DNA from: Roseinatronobacter ekhonensis
GTDB lineage: Bacteria; Pseudomonadota; Alphaproteobacteria; Rhodobacterales; Rhodobacteraceae
Direction of reading: 5' to 3'
Assembly: GCF_900499075.1 (NCBI RefSeq)
Contig: NZ_UIHC01000035.1
Location: 1 to 33,725 of the forward strand
DNA: 33,725 bases
The position numbers and the translations under genes are program-made. Below are positions 3,443 through 14,668 of this stretch, piece after piece. Within the stretch, counting starts at the first letter, position 1. The number at the start of each line of letters is the position of its first letter. The notes below the pieces were generated by a model. It was not told the DNA's origin. It did not search any database and saw nothing but the letters and a program-made list of their open reading frames with translations.

Positions 3443-3763
3443 TCAGGCCGCATCGGTCACAGCAGGCAGACCGGCGCAGCAGTCGGTCAGCAAGAAGTCG
3501 AGCACATGGCGCAGCTCCTCGGTGCAGGCACTGTTGCGCACCTCGCGCCCTTGGCGGGTTTGCGCAACAAGACCGGCATCCTTCAGGCTGCGCAGGTGAT
3601 GCGCGAGCGTAGAGAGCGGCATATCCAGATGCGCGGCGATTTCGCCCACCAGTAAGCCATCGGGCGCGGCGCGCACCAGCAGACGAAACACCGCCAACCG
3701 GGCCGGATGGCCAAGGGCGGCAAGGGCAACAGCTGCGGAGTCGGATGTCATCGTCATGCTCAT
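3443..3763 (-). CDS. ArsR/SmtB-family winged-helix repressor
   Basis: This is a 106-residue DNA-binding protein. It shows the ArsR fold: LAALGHPARLAVFRLLV, then GEIAAHLDMPLSTLAHHLRSLKDAGLV as the helix-turn-helix (residues about 40-66), then the wing QTRQGREV. The usual ELCVCDL metal-binding loop is absent (GLLVGEI here). Cysteines are confined to the C-terminal half: Cys80, and the pair Cys95-Cys96 in LLTDCCAG. These are candidates for arsenic or soft-metal sensing. The downstream permease of the ArsP type fits a sensor-exporter pair. The start could be any of three closely spaced ATGs (3763, 3757, 3751). No good ribosome-binding site precedes them, so a leaderless transcript is possible. 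The upstream dyad suggests autoregulation. Confidence 0.88.
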   Translation of the reverse strand: MSMTMTSDSAAVALAALGHPARLAVFRLLVRAAPDGLLVGEIAAHLDMPLSTLAHHLRSLKDAGLVAQTRQGREVRNSACTEELRHVLDFLLTDCCAGLPAVTDAA

Positions 3764-3788
3764 AACAATAACTATTTTTCTGGTTATG
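3761..3788 (-). promoter_or_regulatory. Dyad upstream of arsR (likely operator), repeat copy 1
   Basis: The outer arms CATAAC (3761-3766) and GTTATG (3783-3788) are a perfect inverted repeat, with a nested ATAAC/GTTAT pair. AATAACTATTTTTCTGG (3767-3783) inside it recurs, inverted, before the permease. AT-rich dyads overlapping the promoter and start are the usual operators of ArsR proteins, so autorepression is the likely role. No binding data are implied. Confidence 0.5.
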
Positions 3789-3885
3789 TAAACATAAATT
3801 CGCGCGGCCAATGCCCTGTGCAATCTTTGCGCAAGAAGTGCAAAGCATGGCCTGCAATCTGCGCAAGTTTATGGTCATTTTGTCA

Positions 3886-3914
3886 TTGACCCGCCCAGCT
3901 TCGGCGCTTACTTT
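3886..3914 (+). promoter_or_regulatory. Predicted promoter of the ilvB operon
   Basis: TTGACC at 3886-3891 and TACTTT at 3909-3914 are separated by exactly 17 bases. This predicts a transcript starting near 3920, just before the leader peptide ribosome-binding site. The position fits the attenuator downstream. Confidence 0.6.
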
Positions 3915-3934
3915 CCAGCCAGCTAAGGCAACGG

Positions 3935-3994
3935 ATGGCGGCAATGCGTTCAGCACTTGTAATCGTAGTAGGAAAGACGCGCATGGGCCGGTAA
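3935..3994 (+). CDS. ilvB operon leader peptide (attenuation)
   Basis: This is a 19-codon reading frame, ATG at 3935 to TAA at 3992-3994, preceded by AAGG with proper spacing. Its core is A-L-V-I-V-V (codons 7-12), exactly the amino acids made by the operon downstream. The end of the frame overlaps the 5' arm of the antiterminator at 3979-3987. Scarce Leu/Val/Ile-tRNA would stall the ribosome on these codons and leave that arm free. This is the classical ribosome-mediated attenuation layout known for ilv operons. The peptide itself has no expected function. Confidence 0.85.
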   Translation: MAAMRSALVIVVGKTRMGR

Positions 3995-4022
3995 CGGACT
4001 TCCCAAACGGAACCCCATGCGC
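3979..4022 (+). promoter_or_regulatory. Antiterminator stem of the ilvB attenuator
   Basis: GCGCATGGG (3979-3987, inside the leader peptide frame) is perfectly complementary to CCCATGCGC (4014-4022). The 3' arm overlaps the first bases of the terminator stem that starts at 4021, so the two structures are mutually exclusive. A ribosome stalled at the Leu/Val/Ile codons (3956-3970) would allow this stem to form and transcription to continue. Confidence 0.8.
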
Positions 4023-4046
4023 CCCCGAAACACCGGGGGCTTTTTT
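4021..4046 (+). terminator. Attenuator terminator before ilvB
   Basis: GCCCCCG (4021-4027) pairs with CGGGGGC (4034-4040) around a 6-base loop and is followed directly by six T (4041-4046). It is an intrinsic terminator about 55 bases before the ilvB start, and it competes with the antiterminator. Confidence 0.9.
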
Positions 4047-4100
4047 ATTGCCGCAACCCGCGCTAAAGCGCCCTTGACATGACGGTGGATGGAGCAAGCG

Positions 4101-5858
4101 ATGACACGTCAGATGACCGGAGCCAAGATGGTGATAGAAGCCCTGAAAGATCAGGGTGTGGATGTGGTATTCGGCTACCCCGGTGGCGCGGTCCTGCCCA
4201 TCTATGACGAGATGTTCCAGCAAAACGACATCAAGCACATTCTGGTGCGGCATGAGCAGGGCGCGATCCATGCGGCCGAAGGGTACGCGCGCTCCACCGG
4301 CAAGCCCGGCGTTGTTCTGGTTACATCGGGTCCGGGTGCCACCAACACGGTCACGGGCATTGTCGATGCGCTGATGGATTCCATCCCGATTGTCGTTCTG
4401 ACAGGGCAGGTGCCCACCTTTATGATCGGGTCGGACGCCTTTCAGGAGGGCGACACGGTTGGTATAACCCGCCCCTGCACCAAGATGAACTGGCTGGTCA
4501 AGGAAACCGACAAACTGGCGGGCACCATCCACGAGGCGTTCCATGTTGCCACCTCTGGTCGCCCCGGCCCGGTGCTGGTGGATATCCCGAAGGATGTGCA
4601 ATTCGCCACCGGGATTTACAAGGAAAAGGCCGACACGCGCACCTCGCATTACGCGCCGCGCACCAAGGGCGACCCCGAGATGATCGCCCGCATGGTCGAG
4701 CTGATCGAAACCGCCGAACGCCCCGTGTTCTATACCGGCGGCGGTGTTATCAATTCGGGCGACCGTGCGACGCAGGTTTTGCGCGATTGGGCAGAGGCCA
4801 CCGGGTTCCCTGTGACCAGCACCTTGATGGGGCTTGGCTGCTATCCCGCCAGCGGCAAATCTTGGCTGGGCATGCTGGGGATGCACGGCACCTATCAGGC
4901 AAACTGGGCCATGCATGATTGCGACCTGATGCTGAATATCGGTGCGCGCTTCGACGACCGGATCACGGGCCGCATCAACGCGTTCAGCCCCGAGTCGACC
5001 AAGGTGCATATCGACATCGACCCGTCCTCGCTCAACAAGGTCATCCACACCCATGTCCCGATCATCGGCGATGTGGCCGATGTGCTGGAAGAGGCGTTCG
5101 CGCTCTGGAAATCGCGCGGCGGCAATGTGAACCGCGAGGCGCTGGTGCGCTGGTGGAAACAGATCGACGAATGGCGCGCTGTCGATTGTCTGGCCTACAC
5201 TCCCACCGGCGGCACGCCCATTCGCCCGCAGCATGCCCTGACGCGGCTGGAAGCGCTGACCAAGGGAATGGACCGCTACATCACCACCGAAGTGGGCCAG
5301 CACCAGATGTGGGCGGCGCAATATCTGGGCTTTGACGGGCCGAACCGCTGGATGACATCTGGCGGGCTTGGCACCATGGGCTACGGCGTGCCCGCGTCCA
5401 TCGGCGTGCAGATCGCGCATCCCGACGCGCTGGTCATCAACGTCGCGGGAGAGGCAAGCTGGCTGATGAACATGCAGGAAATGGGCACGGCGATGCAGTA
5501 TAAAGCGCCGGTCAAACAGTTCATCATGAACAATGAACGCCTTGGCATGGTGCGGCAGTGGCAGGAATTGCTGCATGGCGAGCGGTATTCCAGTTCCTGG
5601 TCGGAATCGTTGCCCGATTTCGTCAAGCTGGCCGAAGCCTTCGGCTGCAAGGGCATCCGTTGCGACAGCGAGGACGACCTGGATGAGGCGATCCGCGAGA
5701 TGCTGGCCTATGATGGCCCGGTGATCTTCGATTGTCTGGTGGAAAAGCATGAAAACTGCTTCCCCATGATCCCGTCGGGCAATGCACATAACGACATGCT
5801 GCTGGGCAACGCGGAAACCCAAGGCGTGATCGGCGCCAAGGGCGCGGTTTTGGTGTAG
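4101..5858 (+). CDS. ilvB: Acetolactate synthase large (catalytic) subunit
   Basis: This 585-residue thiamine-diphosphate enzyme joins two pyruvates, or pyruvate and 2-oxobutyrate, in the first common step of valine, leucine and isoleucine synthesis. The N-terminal ThDP domain has FGYPGGAVLPIYD with the catalytic Glu in LVRHEQGAIHAAEGYAR, and SGPGATN. The middle FAD-binding region has IGARFDDR, and the C-terminal ThDP/Mg region has NVAGEASWLMN and NNERLGMVRQWQ. The start at 4101 is chosen over the in-frame ATG at 4089 because GGAG at 4091-4094 is well spaced for 4101. The gene is under the attenuator upstream. It is the first gene of a cluster with an unknown gene (next base after the stop) and ilvN. 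The symbol ilvI would be equally acceptable. Confidence 0.95.
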   Translation: MTRQMTGAKMVIEALKDQGVDVVFGYPGGAVLPIYDEMFQQNDIKHILVRHEQGAIHAAEGYARSTGKPGVVLVTSGPGATNTVTGIVDALMDSIPIVVLTGQVPTFMIGSDAFQEGDTVGITRPCTKMNWLVKETDKLAGTIHEAFHVATSGRPGPVLVDIPKDVQFATGIYKEKADTRTSHYAPRTKGDPEMIARMVELIETAERPVFYTGGGVINSGDRATQVLRDWAEATGFPVTSTLMGLGCYPASGKSWLGMLGMHGTYQANWAMHDCDLMLNIGARFDDRITGRINAFSPESTKVHIDIDPSSLNKVIHTHVPIIGDVADVLEEAFALWKSRGGNVNREALVRWWKQIDEWRAVDCLAYTPTGGTPIRPQHALTRLEALTKGMDRYITTEVGQHQMWAAQYLGFDGPNRWMTSGGLGTMGYGVPASIGVQIAHPDALVINVAGEASWLMNMQEMGTAMQYKAPVKQFIMNNERLGMVRQWQELLHGERYSSSWSESLPDFVKLAEAFGCKGIRCDSEDDLDEAIREMLAYDGPVIFDCLVEKHENCFPMIPSGNAHNDMLLGNAETQGVIGAKGAVLV

Positions 5859-5859
5859 G

Positions 5860-6372
5860 ATGCCAGACGATAAGCACTCGCTGCGATCATCCACGCGGGA
5901 GGAATACGTAGAGTATATTCTTCTGGCGGCGCTATGCTCTTTTGGATGGTCGCGCGACAGGTTTGTTGAAGTCGCACGCACGCAAACCGATGCACAGGGC
6001 TACGATCTGGTGTTGGCATGTGACGGTGTCATGCGCCATGTCCAACTCAAATCCAGCAAAGCTGGCGGTCGTGCGGCGCACCAAAAGGTCAATACGGCCT
6101 TGGCATCCAAACCCGGCGGCTGTGTCGTTTGGGCTGTCGTGGATCCGGAGACACTCCATCCTGTTGAATACAGGTGGTTTGGCGGTGCTCCCGATAGTGA
6201 GTTGCCAGACCTAGGCGACCGCCGAGCGCGTCATACCAAGGGCAACGCCCAAGGCGTCAAATCGCTTCGGGATGCCATCCGGATCGTGGCCAAAAGCCGC
6301 TTTGAAACGCTAAGAACCCCGCAAGAGCTGTTCCACCGTCTTTTCGGAGATGGCAAAGAATTGGAGTGTTAG
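5860..6372 (+). CDS. Uncharacterised PD-(D/E)XK nuclease-like protein between ilvB and ilvN
   Basis: I do not recognise a named family for this 170-residue protein. Residues 13-27 (REEYVEYILLAALC) form a helix with Glu15 and Glu18, followed by a beta-like segment, GYDLVL with Asp49, then RHVQLKSS with Gln62 and Lys64. The spacing Glu, Asp, Gln-x-Lys matches the core of PD-(D/E)XK nuclease folds of the Q-x-K type, as seen in some homing and restriction endonucleases. A basic stretch follows (RRARHTKGNAQGVKSLRDAIR). No signal peptide or membrane segment is seen. Its ATG lies one base after the ilvB stop and its stop lies two bases before the ilvN start, so it must be co-transcribed and probably translationally coupled. 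Its job in amino-acid synthesis, if any, is unknown. The nuclease fold is inferred from motif spacing only. Confidence 0.8.
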   Translation: MPDDKHSLRSSTREEYVEYILLAALCSFGWSRDRFVEVARTQTDAQGYDLVLACDGVMRHVQLKSSKAGGRAAHQKVNTALASKPGGCVVWAVVDPETLHPVEYRWFGGAPDSELPDLGDRRARHTKGNAQGVKSLRDAIRIVAKSRFETLRTPQELFHRLFGDGKELEC

Positions 6373-6374
6373 GA

Positions 6375-6935
6375 ATGTCCCCCCTCAACATACAAAAAGG
6401 CGCGTCGAAGCATAGCGCCTATGACCTGCGCGACCCGAATGCAGAGGTGATCGAGACGCATACGCTCGCCGTGATCGTCGACAACGAATCCGGTGTGCTG
6501 GCGCGGGTCATCGGGCTGTTCTCGGCGCGTGGCTACAATATCGACAGCCTGACCGTGGCCGAAGTGGACCATCTGGGCCACCTGTCGCGCATCACGGTTG
6601 TCACCAGCGGCACGCCGCAGGTGATCGTGCAGATCAAGGCGCAGTTGGAACGTATGGTCGTCGTCCACCGGGTGCATGATCTGACCATGGAAGGTCCGAA
6701 TGTGCAGCGTGAGCTGGCGTTGTTCAAGGTCAAGGGCAGAGGTGAAGCACGGATCGAGGCGCTGCGTCTGGCCGAGATTTTCCGCGCCAATGTGGTGGAC
6801 TCGACGCTGGAATCCTTCGTCTTCGAGATGACCGGCACGCCGCAAAAGGTCGATGCCTTTGCCGAATTGATGCAGCCTTTGGGGCTGATCGAAGTGGCGC
6901 GCACCGGCGTTGCAGCCATATCGCGCGGCGTCTGA
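6375..6935 (+). CDS. ilvN: Acetolactate synthase small (regulatory) subunit
   Basis: This 186-residue regulatory subunit binds valine and restores full activity of the catalytic subunit. The N-terminal ACT domain is clear: HTLAVIVDNESGVLARVIGLFSARGYNIDSLTV (residues about 30-62), with the DN-SGVL loop that holds the feedback inhibitor. It is followed by the C-terminal domain with ELALFKVK and FVFEMTGTPQKVDAF. The length matches the ilvH/ilvN type of alphaproteobacteria. The ATG at 6375 follows AGGA and lies two bases after the preceding stop. An in-frame GTG at 6366 lies inside the previous gene and is less likely. The gene ends in a strong terminator. Confidence 0.95.
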   Translation: MSPLNIQKGASKHSAYDLRDPNAEVIETHTLAVIVDNESGVLARVIGLFSARGYNIDSLTVAEVDHLGHLSRITVVTSGTPQVIVQIKAQLERMVVVHRVHDLTMEGPNVQRELALFKVKGRGEARIEALRLAEIFRANVVDSTLESFVFEMTGTPQKVDAFAELMQPLGLIEVARTGVAAISRGV

Positions 6936-6952
6936 AACGCGCGGCCCACGCA

Positions 6953-6979
6953 AAAGACCGCCCGAAATGGGCGGTCTTT
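6953..6979. terminator. Bidirectional terminator between ilvN and the FKBP gene
   Basis: AAAGACCGCCC (6953-6963) and GGGCGGTCTTT (6969-6979) form a perfect 11-bp stem with a 5-base loop and A/T flanks on both sides. It serves ilvN from the left and the convergent isomerase gene from the right. Confidence 0.9.
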
Positions 6980-6995
6980 CCAAAGCGGTAACGAT

Positions 6996-7424
6996 TTACG
7001 CGACAGAGACCAGTTCGACCGCGAAGGTCAGGTCTTTGCCCGCCAACGGGTGGTTGGCATCCAGCGTGACGGTCTCTTCGGTCACTTCGGCCACTTGCAC
7101 CGGAACCTGCCGCCCGTCGGGGGTCTGCATGTTCAGCATCGTGCCCGGATCCAGCGGGATATCTGCGGGGATCTGCTCGCGCGGCACCGATTGCTTGGCC
7201 TCTGCCTGGTATTCGCCATACGCTTCGGTGGCCGGAATGGTCACGGTTTTCTGCTCTCCGGTGGCCATGCCGTCTATCGCGCGGTCTAGTCCGGGGATGA
7301 TCTGGCCCGACCCGACGGTGAATTCGAGCGGGTCGCGCCCTTCCGAGCTGTCGAACACAGAGCCGTCTTCCAGCGTGCCGGTGTAATGAATACGAACAGT
7401 GTTGCCCGCCGCTGCGTGCGTCAT
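6996..7424 (-). CDS. FKBP-type peptidyl-prolyl cis-trans isomerase, SlyD-like
   Basis: This is a 142-residue folding helper that isomerises Xaa-Pro bonds. The FKBP core is visible: VRIHYTGTLEDGSVFDSS near residues 10-27, and FTVGSGQIIPGLDRAIDGM at about 36-54. The inserted chaperone flap (AYGEYQAEAKQSVPREQIP) has the layout of SlyD. The His- and Cys-rich metal-binding tail of E. coli SlyD is absent, so nickel handling is not suggested. There is no signal peptide, so it acts in the cytoplasm. The start at 7424 has GGAAGG about 7 bases upstream. The gene is monocistronic and converges on ilvN. Confidence 0.9.
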   Translation of the reverse strand: MTHAAAGNTVRIHYTGTLEDGSVFDSSEGRDPLEFTVGSGQIIPGLDRAIDGMATGEQKTVTIPATEAYGEYQAEAKQSVPREQIPADIPLDPGTMLNMQTPDGRQVPVQVAEVTEETVTLDANHPLAGKDLTFAVELVSVA

Positions 7425-12284: not shown

Positions 12285-12980
12285 ATGAAAAAGATCTACG
12301 GCTCCGCGTCAGAGGCGCTGGATGGCCTTTTGTTCGACGGGATGACCATCGCAGCAGGCGGGTTCGGCTTGTGTGGTATCCCCGAATTGCTGATTGCAGC
12401 CATCCGCGACGCGGGAACAAAGGATCTGACCTTTGCGTCCAACAACGCGGGCGTTGACGGGTTCGGGCTGGGCCTGCTGCTGGAATCGCGTCAGGTCAAA
12501 AAGATGATGTCGTCCTATGTCGGCGAGAATGCAGAATTCATGCGCCAATACCTGTCAGGAGAGTTGGAGCTGGAATTCAACCCTCAAGGCACTTTGGCCG
12601 AACGGATGCGCGCTGGCGGCGCAGGGATTGCCGGGTTCTACACCCGCACCGGCGTTGGGACCCAGATTGCAGATGGCAAGGAACACAAGGATTTCAACGG
12701 CGAGACTTTTGTGCTGGAAGAAGGCATCTTCGCCGATTTGTCGATTGTGAAAGCGTGGAAAGCAGACACGACCGGCAATGCGATTTTCCGCAAAACCGCG
12801 CGCAACTTCAATCCGCCGGCAGCGAAATGCGGCAAGGTCTGCGTGCTGGAGGTGGAAGAAATCGTCGAGCCGGGCACGCTGGACCCCGACGCCATCCACC
12901 TTCCGGGAATATATGTGAACCGCCTGATACAGGGGGAACACGAAAAGCGGATCGAACAGCGCACCACGCGCGCGGCGTAA
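12285..12980 (+). CDS. 3-oxoacid CoA-transferase subunit A
   Basis: This 231-residue alpha subunit of a class I CoA-transferase moves CoA from succinyl-CoA (or acetyl-CoA) to acetoacetate or a related 3-oxoacid. The CoA-transferase signature is present near residues 22-36 ([15 protein letters not shown]). Other family motifs are [29 protein letters not shown] and [10 protein letters not shown]. The AEfNPqG and GIYVNRL elements favour the succinyl-CoA:3-ketoacid type (ScoA). A 13-bp interrupted palindrome lies upstream at 12258-12270. The matching B subunit is 1.06 kb downstream, beyond the LOV kinase gene, on the same strand with short gaps, so all three are likely one operon. Confidence 0.92.
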
Positions 12981-12992
12981 CGAGGGACGGCG

Positions 12993-14021
12993 ATGGAAGG
13001 GCAAACGCTTGCGGGTGCGCTTGGTTCGAATGAAGCCTTTGCAGGCTTCTCGCGCTTGCGCATCTCGATGGTGCTGAGTGATCCCCGACAGGATGACAAC
13101 CCCATAATCTATGTAAACGATGCGTTCGAGCGGATGACCGGCTACAGCGCGTCGGAGGTTATCGGCCGCAACTGCCGATTCTTGCAAGGCGAGAAGACGG
13201 ACAAGCGCGATGTCGACCGCATCCGCCATGCCATCGCGACCCAATCCGAAGTTTCGGTCGATATCCTTAATTACCGCGCCAATGGCACGCCGTTTACCAA
13301 CCGTCTGATTGTCGCGCCGATCGCGGGGGATGATGGTGAGGCGCTTTTTTTCCTGGGCGTTCAGAAAGAACTGACGGAACAGGATCGCGGAACGGATAAC
13401 CGGATCACCGCCGACCGTCTGAGTGTCGTGCAGGGCTTTGTGCACCGTGATCTGGCGATGATCCTGAGCAGCCTGCGCGAACCGGACAAGAACGTAGAGC
13501 TGCCGACCTTGCGCGAGTTGGAAGCGCTGCCCCGCCGTCTGGAAACGCTGCAACTTGTCTATGAGGAAATGCGGTTGACCGGCGGGATCGACGGGCTTGG
13601 CAAAGTTGATCTTGGCACGGTCATCGCGCGCGTTTCGTCTGCAATCGCCCATTACGAGGGACGTGCTGGCGTCCGCTTTACCCAGACGGTGGAACGCGCA
13701 GAAATAACGCTGGACCGCGCCACACGCTTGGCGCTGATCGTGTCGGAAACACTGCACAACGCGTTCAACCATGCCTTCAGTCTACAAGACGAAGGCCGGA
13801 TCGAACTGCGTGTGACCAATTTGTCTGGGGGCGGCGTCCGCATCCTGATCAGCGATGACGGGGAAGGCATGCCCGCAGATATGGCCTGGCCGAACGACAA
13901 GTTCGCAGGCGGGCGACTTGTGCGCGGCTTGCTGAACGGGCTGGATGCGACGCTGAATGTGGTGCGTGGGGCAGCCGGTACGGTCGTGCTGCTGGACGTG
14001 CCGGTAGATTTTGAGGCTTGA
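12993..14021 (+). CDS. LOV-domain blue-light sensor histidine kinase (degenerate)
   Basis: This 342-residue cytoplasmic protein begins with a LOV photosensor (residues about 18-128). The adduct-forming Cys61 lies in the canonical GRNCRFLQG. The FMN-contacting Asn93 (NYRANG), Asn103 (FTNRL) and Gln124 (FLGVQKE) are all present, so blue-light photochemistry is expected. A dimerisation helix follows near residues 143-161 (VQGFVHRDLAMILSSL). Its His151-Arg152 aligns with the H-R-x-K-N box of HWE/HisKA_2 kinases, but the K-N pair is missing. The ATPase domain has an N box (SETLHNAFNHAF, Glu252, Asn256) and G box (DDGEGMP). A good ribosome-binding site (GAGGGA) precedes the ATG 12 bp after scoA, and scoB starts 17 bp after its stop. 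No response regulator is adjacent. Kinase activity is uncertain. Confidence 0.88.
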   Translation: MEGQTLAGALGSNEAFAGFSRLRISMVLSDPRQDDNPIIYVNDAFERMTGYSASEVIGRNCRFLQGEKTDKRDVDRIRHAIATQSEVSVDILNYRANGTPFTNRLIVAPIAGDDGEALFFLGVQKELTEQDRGTDNRITADRLSVVQGFVHRDLAMILSSLREPDKNVELPTLRELEALPRRLETLQLVYEEMRLTGGIDGLGKVDLGTVIARVSSAIAHYEGRAGVRFTQTVERAEITLDRATRLALIVSETLHNAFNHAFSLQDEGRIELRVTNLSGGGVRILISDDGEGMPADMAWPNDKFAGGRLVRGLLNGLDATLNVVRGAAGTVVLLDVPVDFEA

Positions 14022-14038: not shown

Positions 14039-14668
14039 ATGCCCTGGGACCGCAACCAGATGGCCGCACGAGCGGCACAGGAACTGGAAGATGGAATGTA
14101 TGTCAATCTTGGCATCGGCATCCCGACGCTCGTGGCCAATTACATCCCCGAAGGCGTGCAGGTCACGCTGCAATCGGAAAACGGGATGCTGGGTATCGGC
14201 CCGTTCCCGACAGAGGATGACATTGATCCCGACCTCATCAATGCGGGCAAGCAAACCGTGACGGCGCTGCCCCATACCGCCTATTTCGACAGTGCCGAAT
14301 CGTTTGCCATGATCCGCGGCGGCAAGATCAACATGGCCATCTTGGGCGCGATGGAAGTGGCCGAGAACGGCGATATCGCGAACTGGATGATCCCCGGCAA
14401 GCTGGTCAAAGGCATGGGCGGCGCGATGGACCTTGTCGCGGGCGTGAAGCGCGTGATCGTGGTCATGGACCACACCAACAAGGCGGGTGAATCAAAGCTG
14501 CTCAAGGCCTGCACCTTGCCGCTGACGGCGACTGGCGTCGTCAAACGCATCATCACCAATCTGGGCGTTCTGGACGTGGTCGAAGGCGGGTTGAAGATCG
14601 TCGAATGCGCCGAAGGTGTCACCGAAGACGAGATTCGGGCCGCAACAGAGGCGGCGATTGTCGCCTAG
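14039..14668 (+). CDS. 3-oxoacid CoA-transferase subunit B
   Basis: This 209-residue beta subunit carries the catalytic glutamate: Glu47 in [12 protein letters not shown], which forms the enzyme-CoA thioester. The glycine-rich [16 protein letters not shown] motif at residues 22-37 and the VVMDHTNK and CTLPLTATG segments are typical. It pairs with the A subunit upstream, although the usual direct adjacency is broken by the LOV kinase gene. AAAAGGA lies 7 bases before the ATG. The last four bases overlap the stop of the convergent transglycosylase gene. Confidence 0.94.

Follow-up and report, generated by a model that had tools for sequence, protein, structure and literature searches.

A predicted PD-(D/E)XK nuclease gene between ilvB and ilvN in Roseinatronobacter ekhonensis

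The ilv locus and its leader

The window, a stretch of 33,725 nucleotides of Roseinatronobacter ekhonensis DNA, carries on its plus strand the genes for the large and small subunits of acetolactate synthase, ilvB (4089..5858, ending in TAG; Pfam TPP enzyme) and ilvN (6375..6935, starting with ATG; Pfam ALS_ss_C/ACT). Between them, on the same strand, an open reading frame of 170 amino acids (5860..6372) runs from ATG to TAG and encodes Glu14, Asp49, Gln62, and Lys64 of a predicted PD-(D/E)XK nuclease. A single base separates it from ilvB and two bases from ilvN, and a GGAG inside its last codons is a possible ribosome-binding site for ilvN, as read from the sequence. The coordinates and the Pfam assignments of the neighbors bear out the original prediction, which placed a nuclease-like frame between ilvB and ilvN with gaps of one and two bases. 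Judged by its homologues in genomes, GTDB contigs, plasmids, and IMG/VR, the frame is a real gene. Within the clade of operon copies, dS was computable for 6 of 15 pairs, which give dN/dS values of 0.07-0.23; the other nine are saturated. GC3 is 0.58 in the nuclease gene vs 0.79 in ilvB, a difference that fits a gain from elsewhere.

Upstream of ilvB, a leader peptide ORF (3944..3994, plus strand; MRSALVIVVGKTRMGR, then a stop codon) contains the run Leu-Val-Ile-Val-Val, and it is followed by a strong attenuator terminator (4021..4046, plus strand) consisting of a G+C-rich stem-loop and a T run. Positions 3979-3987 (GCGCATGGG) are able to pair with 4014-4022 (CCCATGCGC), which we read from the sequence as a possible competing structure, and the leader region gives a better fold than shuffled versions of itself (z -2.8). 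A similar leader and terminator lie upstream of ilvB at five of the six loci read (the window, L019, L017, L032, and L033); the exception is L044 of genome G189, where we found an ORF that encodes Val-Leu-Ile-Val but could detect no terminator with a T run. The branched-chain attenuator that had been predicted here thus exists as sequence. We infer that the nuclease gene rides on the attenuated message, and, since the attenuator is real as sequence, its expression is probably linked to nutrition; location by itself is no proof of a nutritional role. An Rfam search over 3600-7100, at E values up to 1, found no RNA element at the junction, its sole match being a sub-threshold sRNA upstream of ilvB.

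The protein and its family

The AlphaFold2 model of the window protein (pLDDT 84.8, pTM 0.81) begins with a helix at residues 3-31, continues with strands at 37-44, 47-54, 57-67, and 74-78 and a short helix at 79-83, and adds a strand at 87-94. Its leading structure matches are the archaeal Holliday junction resolvase Hjc, the DREN nuclease of SPARDA, and I-Ssp6803I, with modest scores and low TM-scores; VIA-align and Foldseek report a fold rather than a function, and the protein may belong to a family outside their libraries. I-Ssp6803I, a bacterial PD-(D/E)XK homing endonuclease of intron origin, is also the best sequence match in the PDB (2ost, E 0.044), with the Asp and the Gln-x-Lys aligned. 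Pfam PDDEXK_5 (PF11645) gives the window protein 18.3 bits, below the gathering cut-off of 26.1, and reaches a best E of 6.8e-5 across 14 family members. Pfam found no further domain in the 170 residues, NCBIfam had no model that matched, and PADLOC returned for this protein a weak homing-endonuclease match and nothing else; the PADLOC HEase model matches 6 of 14 family members (best E 2.5e-4). PHROGs gave two chance-level matches for the window protein and none for four relatives, and a viral fold library gave a single match at E <= 0.001, to a protein without a name.

Glu14 occurs in all 41 aligned members, and Asp49, Gln62, and Lys64 occur in 40 of the 41. By its weak profile matches, its predicted fold with modest-score structural matches, and these residues, the window protein is a PD-(D/E)XK nuclease, and both the fold and the Glu/Asp49/Gln62-x-Lys64 pattern were called correctly at the outset. 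Asp...Gln-x-Lys has been shown to matter for the nuclease activity of DREN (PMC12205087). The window copy retains every position that is invariant across the 41 rows, and it is probably catalytically intact and is predicted to be active. A structural protein using the fold without catalysis, one of the roles first proposed, is unlikely, since the window copy is intact and keeps its catalytic residues, and the description "degraded nuclease" does not apply to it. The degraded case is another ilvB-ilvN insert of the same family, that of G189 (L044), in which 131 amino acids remain and the Gln-x-Lys is gone through an in-frame deletion. Because the G189 frame has stayed open despite that loss, one might picture a decaying, catalytically dead remnant, kept since its frame carries translation to ilvN; with all of the invariant positions preserved, we regard this as very improbable for the window copy.

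The protein differs from known relatives of its fold. Compared with I-Ssp6803I and PDDEXK_5, it scores below the Pfam cut-off, is intergenic rather than intron-borne, and has a conserved C-terminal H-x-K-G-N-A-x-G-x-K region. The SPARDA arrangement, in which DREN (DUF4365) is fused to APAZ and accompanied by a short Argonaute, was not found here: the window protein is single-domain, and its neighbors are ilvB and ilvN rather than an Argonaute.

Searches for the family recovered it in 2 of 60 relatives' genomes and in 13 of 394 across the bacterial family, the window's own genome being counted in both, which makes 14 carrier genomes. Further copies lie at 15 loci on GTDB contigs ranging from Rhodobacteraceae to Acidobacteria and Chloroflexi (L019 and L020 being contigs already counted), in 37 records of a plasmid collection, 21 of them predicted conjugative (among the matches listed, 12 of the 37 are Burkholderia glumae with the same score, and H14, listed as a plasmid, has a length of 4.9 Mb), and at seven IMG/VR loci, two of which (L086 and L087) seem to be one and the same stretch. 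Phage genes stand near IMG/VR copies, namely a terminase and a methyltransferase in L083, a lysozyme in L085, and a capsid gene in L088; the INPHARED phages yielded no family match. Most family loci lie away from ilv genes. On this distribution, which includes plasmids and phage contigs, the family is scattered and mobile.

Several copies have neighbors that belong to defense systems. In L022 an AAA_5 and McrBC pair begins 6 nt downstream of the nuclease, in L028 the neighbor is an AAA ATPase that matches PADLOC strongly, and in L081 a type I S subunit lies about 3 kb from the nuclease copy. At all seven loci of a sister clade (L034-L040, from six genomes) a divergent DNA methyltransferase is found within 0.5-1.2 kb; Pfam N6_N4_Mtase was checked in L035, and a ParB-like N-terminus on the methyltransferase is supported by Pfam in L083 and elsewhere was seen by eye. 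We claim no enrichment for defense, since these neighbors were picked by eye (21 loci laid out, the proteins of five loci scanned, and five of eight proteins matching PADLOC) and many loci have no obvious defense gene. In L034 an HTH_3 protein is encoded between nuclease and methyltransferase, as is a protein of 152 aa without a Pfam family. The plasmid homologues L079 (Neptuniibacter) and L081 (Shewanella) have some 115-130 extra N-terminal residues, alike by eye. On the sphingomonad plasmids L078, L080, and L082, around 4757-4927, a 54-aa ORF lies 43-49 nt upstream of the nuclease; it is alike in both translated cases, L078 and L080.

Junctions between subunit genes

The original prediction held that ilvB and ilvN are normally adjacent, which is half true in this genus. 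The junction was readable in 31 of 37 genomes (in the other six one of the genes was not found, or ilvB and ilvN lay on different contigs); 14 are empty and 17 have 50 to 1238 nt between the genes, at least 240 nt in 12 of these. TAA(A)GGA stands at all 14 of the empty junctions and at none of the 17 longer ones. The nuclease is the insert in the window's genome and in G016, and other inserts include an FkbM methyltransferase, in some cases accompanied by a small lipoprotein-like ORF, a sulfotransferase, and further kinds. L048 (G020) and L052 (G017) hold, one each, a 74-aa ORF without a Pfam family at ilvB-ilvN and a likely 50-nt remnant of it. We considered and rejected the idea that the junction is specific to the nuclease, since 12 of the 31 readable members carry inserts that measure 240 nt or more and are of several kinds.

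Two other junctions between subunit genes, compared as controls by the spacing of their domains, behave in a similar way. Of the 31 genomes readable at sucC-sucD, 15 have a spacer longer than the empty state, one of them by less than 80 nt (19 of 20 loci were judged by domain spacing and that of the window's genome by eye), and scoA-scoB is longer in 13 of 29 readable genomes (G029 has two pairs, of which the longer was counted). The window contains a scoA-scoB insert, recognized by Pfam: a PAS and histidine-kinase-like gene (12993..14021, plus strand) flanked by CoA-transferase subunit genes at 12285-12980 and 14039-14668. For a third control, etfB-etfA, 37 genomes were searched; 35 have the pair, and the spacer is longer in none of them, a larger figure for G006 being due to a later match start; this constancy in 35 of 35 led us to reject the idea that every subunit junction is variable. 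From these comparisons of gene order, the ilvB-ilvN junction is insertion-prone in the genus, as are sucC-sucD and scoA-scoB, and etfB-etfA is not. The window's genome also has a filled sucC-sucD junction, at L167 (G000:C169:17500-19400), where the insert is a 159-aa ORF whose start resembles a signal peptide; in the four nearest relatives the sucC-sucD spacer is 5 nt.

Among 59 genomes of other genera, the ilvB-ilvN spacer is at most 13 nt in 7, 53-139 nt in 34, 206-308 nt in 5, and 510-1482 nt in 8; in the remaining 5, reading 1.7 kb revealed no ilvB. This sample is biased: it was drawn from rows with a separate ilvN among the matches listed, skips fragmented genomes, favors ilvN near that of the window, and excludes 27 genomes in which ilvB and ilvN matched as one row, with short in-frame spacers. 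In this biased sample 18 of 59 have at least 206 nt or no ilvB in reach, and none of the 59 has the nuclease at the junction.

The occupancy of the junction bears on whether the nuclease serves the operon. It might be a domesticated factor in branched-chain amino acid metabolism or in the processing of the ilv message, and its tight fit, the leader and terminator at five of six loci, and the signs of purifying selection are what such a factor would be expected to display. We give this idea very little credence, given that the gene occurs in just 2 of 36 genus genomes among the relatives searched and 13 of 394 in the family (its own genome included in both), most homologues have neighbors other than ilv genes, and the other cargo at the spot is unrelated. 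The nutritional control that had been proposed for the nuclease is probably a side effect of location, since relatives have unrelated genes at this junction, and cargo is also present in two other junctions of this type. The observation and the fold call were right, then, and a special link of the nuclease to nutrition is not supported.

The insertion of single genes into operons is a general phenomenon, and the present case resembles known examples in that the extra gene fits between operon genes without breaking them. Unlike those examples, it involves subunit-pair junctions whose occupants vary from genome to genome inside a single genus. On the genomes compared, the unusual features are that one nuclease family recurs at one junction and that subunit-pair junctions are refilled. 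A literature search, with most of the subscription literature outside its coverage, found no report of this nuclease at ilvB-ilvN.

Arrival in the operon and probable work

Nuclease kin occupy ilvB-ilvN in 5 of the 14 carrier genomes, and in L017 as well, and the nuclease is missing from nearly all of the relatives that were searched. In the four nearest relatives the junction is empty and the flanks match the window right up to the insert, with identity unbroken both in 200-base windows and at the alignment ends. The absence from close relatives, which had been expected to mark a recent insertion if found, points in that direction: because these four relatives are empty and agree with the window as far as its insert, the nuclease was probably gained recently in the window lineage, although kin are found at that spot in other genera. 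An import of neighboring DNA along with the nuclease during a recent arrival is not supported for the window copy, since its flanks stay like those of the empty relatives right up to both edges of the insert.

In the nuclease tree the operon copies of the window, L017, L018, L019, L032, and L033 form one clade (100/99), and the G189 operon copy groups with the methyltransferase-paired clade (98/88), which suggests two independent insertions, one in the G189 lineage and one in that of the window; a single clade for all seven operon copies was not rejected (p-AU 0.30). L018:1-3835 has ilvB, the nuclease, and then a reversed ubiB-like gene (by eye) where ilvN is expected, and is either rearranged or misassembled. 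The nuclease tree pairs the window with G016 (97/87), and the tree of IlvB and IlvN (35 rows, with over half of the positions missing in ten) nests the window with its four empty relatives (100/100).

These trees also weigh on the notion of one old ancestral insertion, inherited vertically and lost many times. The single clade of six operon copies, the p-AU value for all seven, and a pS between L032 and L033 that is barely higher at the nuclease (0.41) than at ilvB (0.37) can be reconciled with it. Against it, nuclease presence needs four changes on the ilv tree, three of them forced by well-supported branches, and the synonymous difference between window and G016 is 0.73 for the nuclease vs 0.52 for ilvB and 0.45 for ilvN, values near saturation. 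Losses among the window's relatives would also have to restore the spacer at the empty junctions, and repeated exact losses are unlikely because TAA(A)GGA would need rebuilding. We consider an old insertion improbable.

Repeated occupancy of one site raises the possibility of a free-standing homing endonuclease, with ilvB-ilvN as the home site, that cuts nuclease-free ilvBN alleles and is copied in by repair. I-Ssp6803I as best PDB match, the PADLOC HEase matches in 6 of 14 members, the occupancy in 5 of 14 carriers plus L017, and the conflict between nuclease and ilv trees are all in keeping with such an enzyme. The ORF is intergenic and lies in no intron or intein, a location that free-standing homing endonucleases can dispense with. 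Endonuclease-driven mobility leaves co-conversion tracts (PMC2988022), and comparison with the four empty relatives revealed none, the window's flanks matching theirs to the stop and start codons, although a donor with near-identical flanks could hide a tract. Several unrelated genes occupy the same site, and the majority of family loci are elsewhere. Since this mark of endonuclease-driven mobility is missing, we think homing unlikely, though less so than an old insertion. We hold as equally doubtful a broader proposal, in which a site-directed mobile nuclease of the I-Ssp6803I/DREN branch has its home at ilvB-ilvN in Rhodobacteraceae, and ilvB-ilvN, sucC-sucD, and scoA-scoB act as genus-wide slots for cargo exchange.

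The reading we prefer, with a probability of roughly 0.55, is that a horizontally gained PD-(D/E)XK nuclease is carried as operon cargo and probably works as a stand-alone, restriction-type enzyme that cuts incoming DNA. The nuclease would belong to a small mobile family related to the I-Ssp6803I/DREN branch and would have reached the window lineage by horizontal transfer, a single gene lodging exactly between the ilvB stop and the ilvN start. There the nuclease gene probably shares one attenuator-controlled message with its two neighbors and is co-translated with them. This position would supply expression and would make the gene hard to lose, because a crude deletion would risk harm to ilvBN, and this may be why it has been retained. 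The presence of 5 of 14 carriers at one site exceeds what neutral cargo predicts and counts against this explanation.

As to its work, sequence- or modification-dependent cutting of incoming DNA, presumably to the benefit of the host's defense, seems probable, and we favor restriction of foreign DNA because of the genes that neighbor part of the family. The likeness to type II restriction-modification is closest in the sister clade, with its methyltransferase at seven of seven loci and, in L034, an HTH_3 protein; the operon copy has no adjoining methyltransferase, which makes a plain type II role doubtful. With no partner methyltransferase beside it, a plain type II enzyme directed at common sites would poison its host, and the target is therefore expected to be long, rare, or modified. 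We looked for a cognate methyltransferase in the window's genome and rejected the candidates: homologues of the sister-cassette enzyme lie on other contigs and are distant or partial (full-length matches 37-39% identical, partial ones 43-54%), and the empty relative G019 has one at 41%. Matches in G346 are similar (full-length 37-39%, partial up to 54%), those in G016 are partial (26-29%), and G178 has no match to the sister-cassette methyltransferase.

This nuclease family is compact and testable, has no name in the curated libraries searched, and is found on plasmids, on phage contigs, and in an operon for core biosynthesis. Repeated refilling of subunit-pair junctions would make the operons of essential enzymes safe harbors for mobile genes, because cargo placed there is expressed and is hard to delete. 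Should this be true, the spots between subunit genes could yield small defense or selfish genes that searches for genomic islands have missed.
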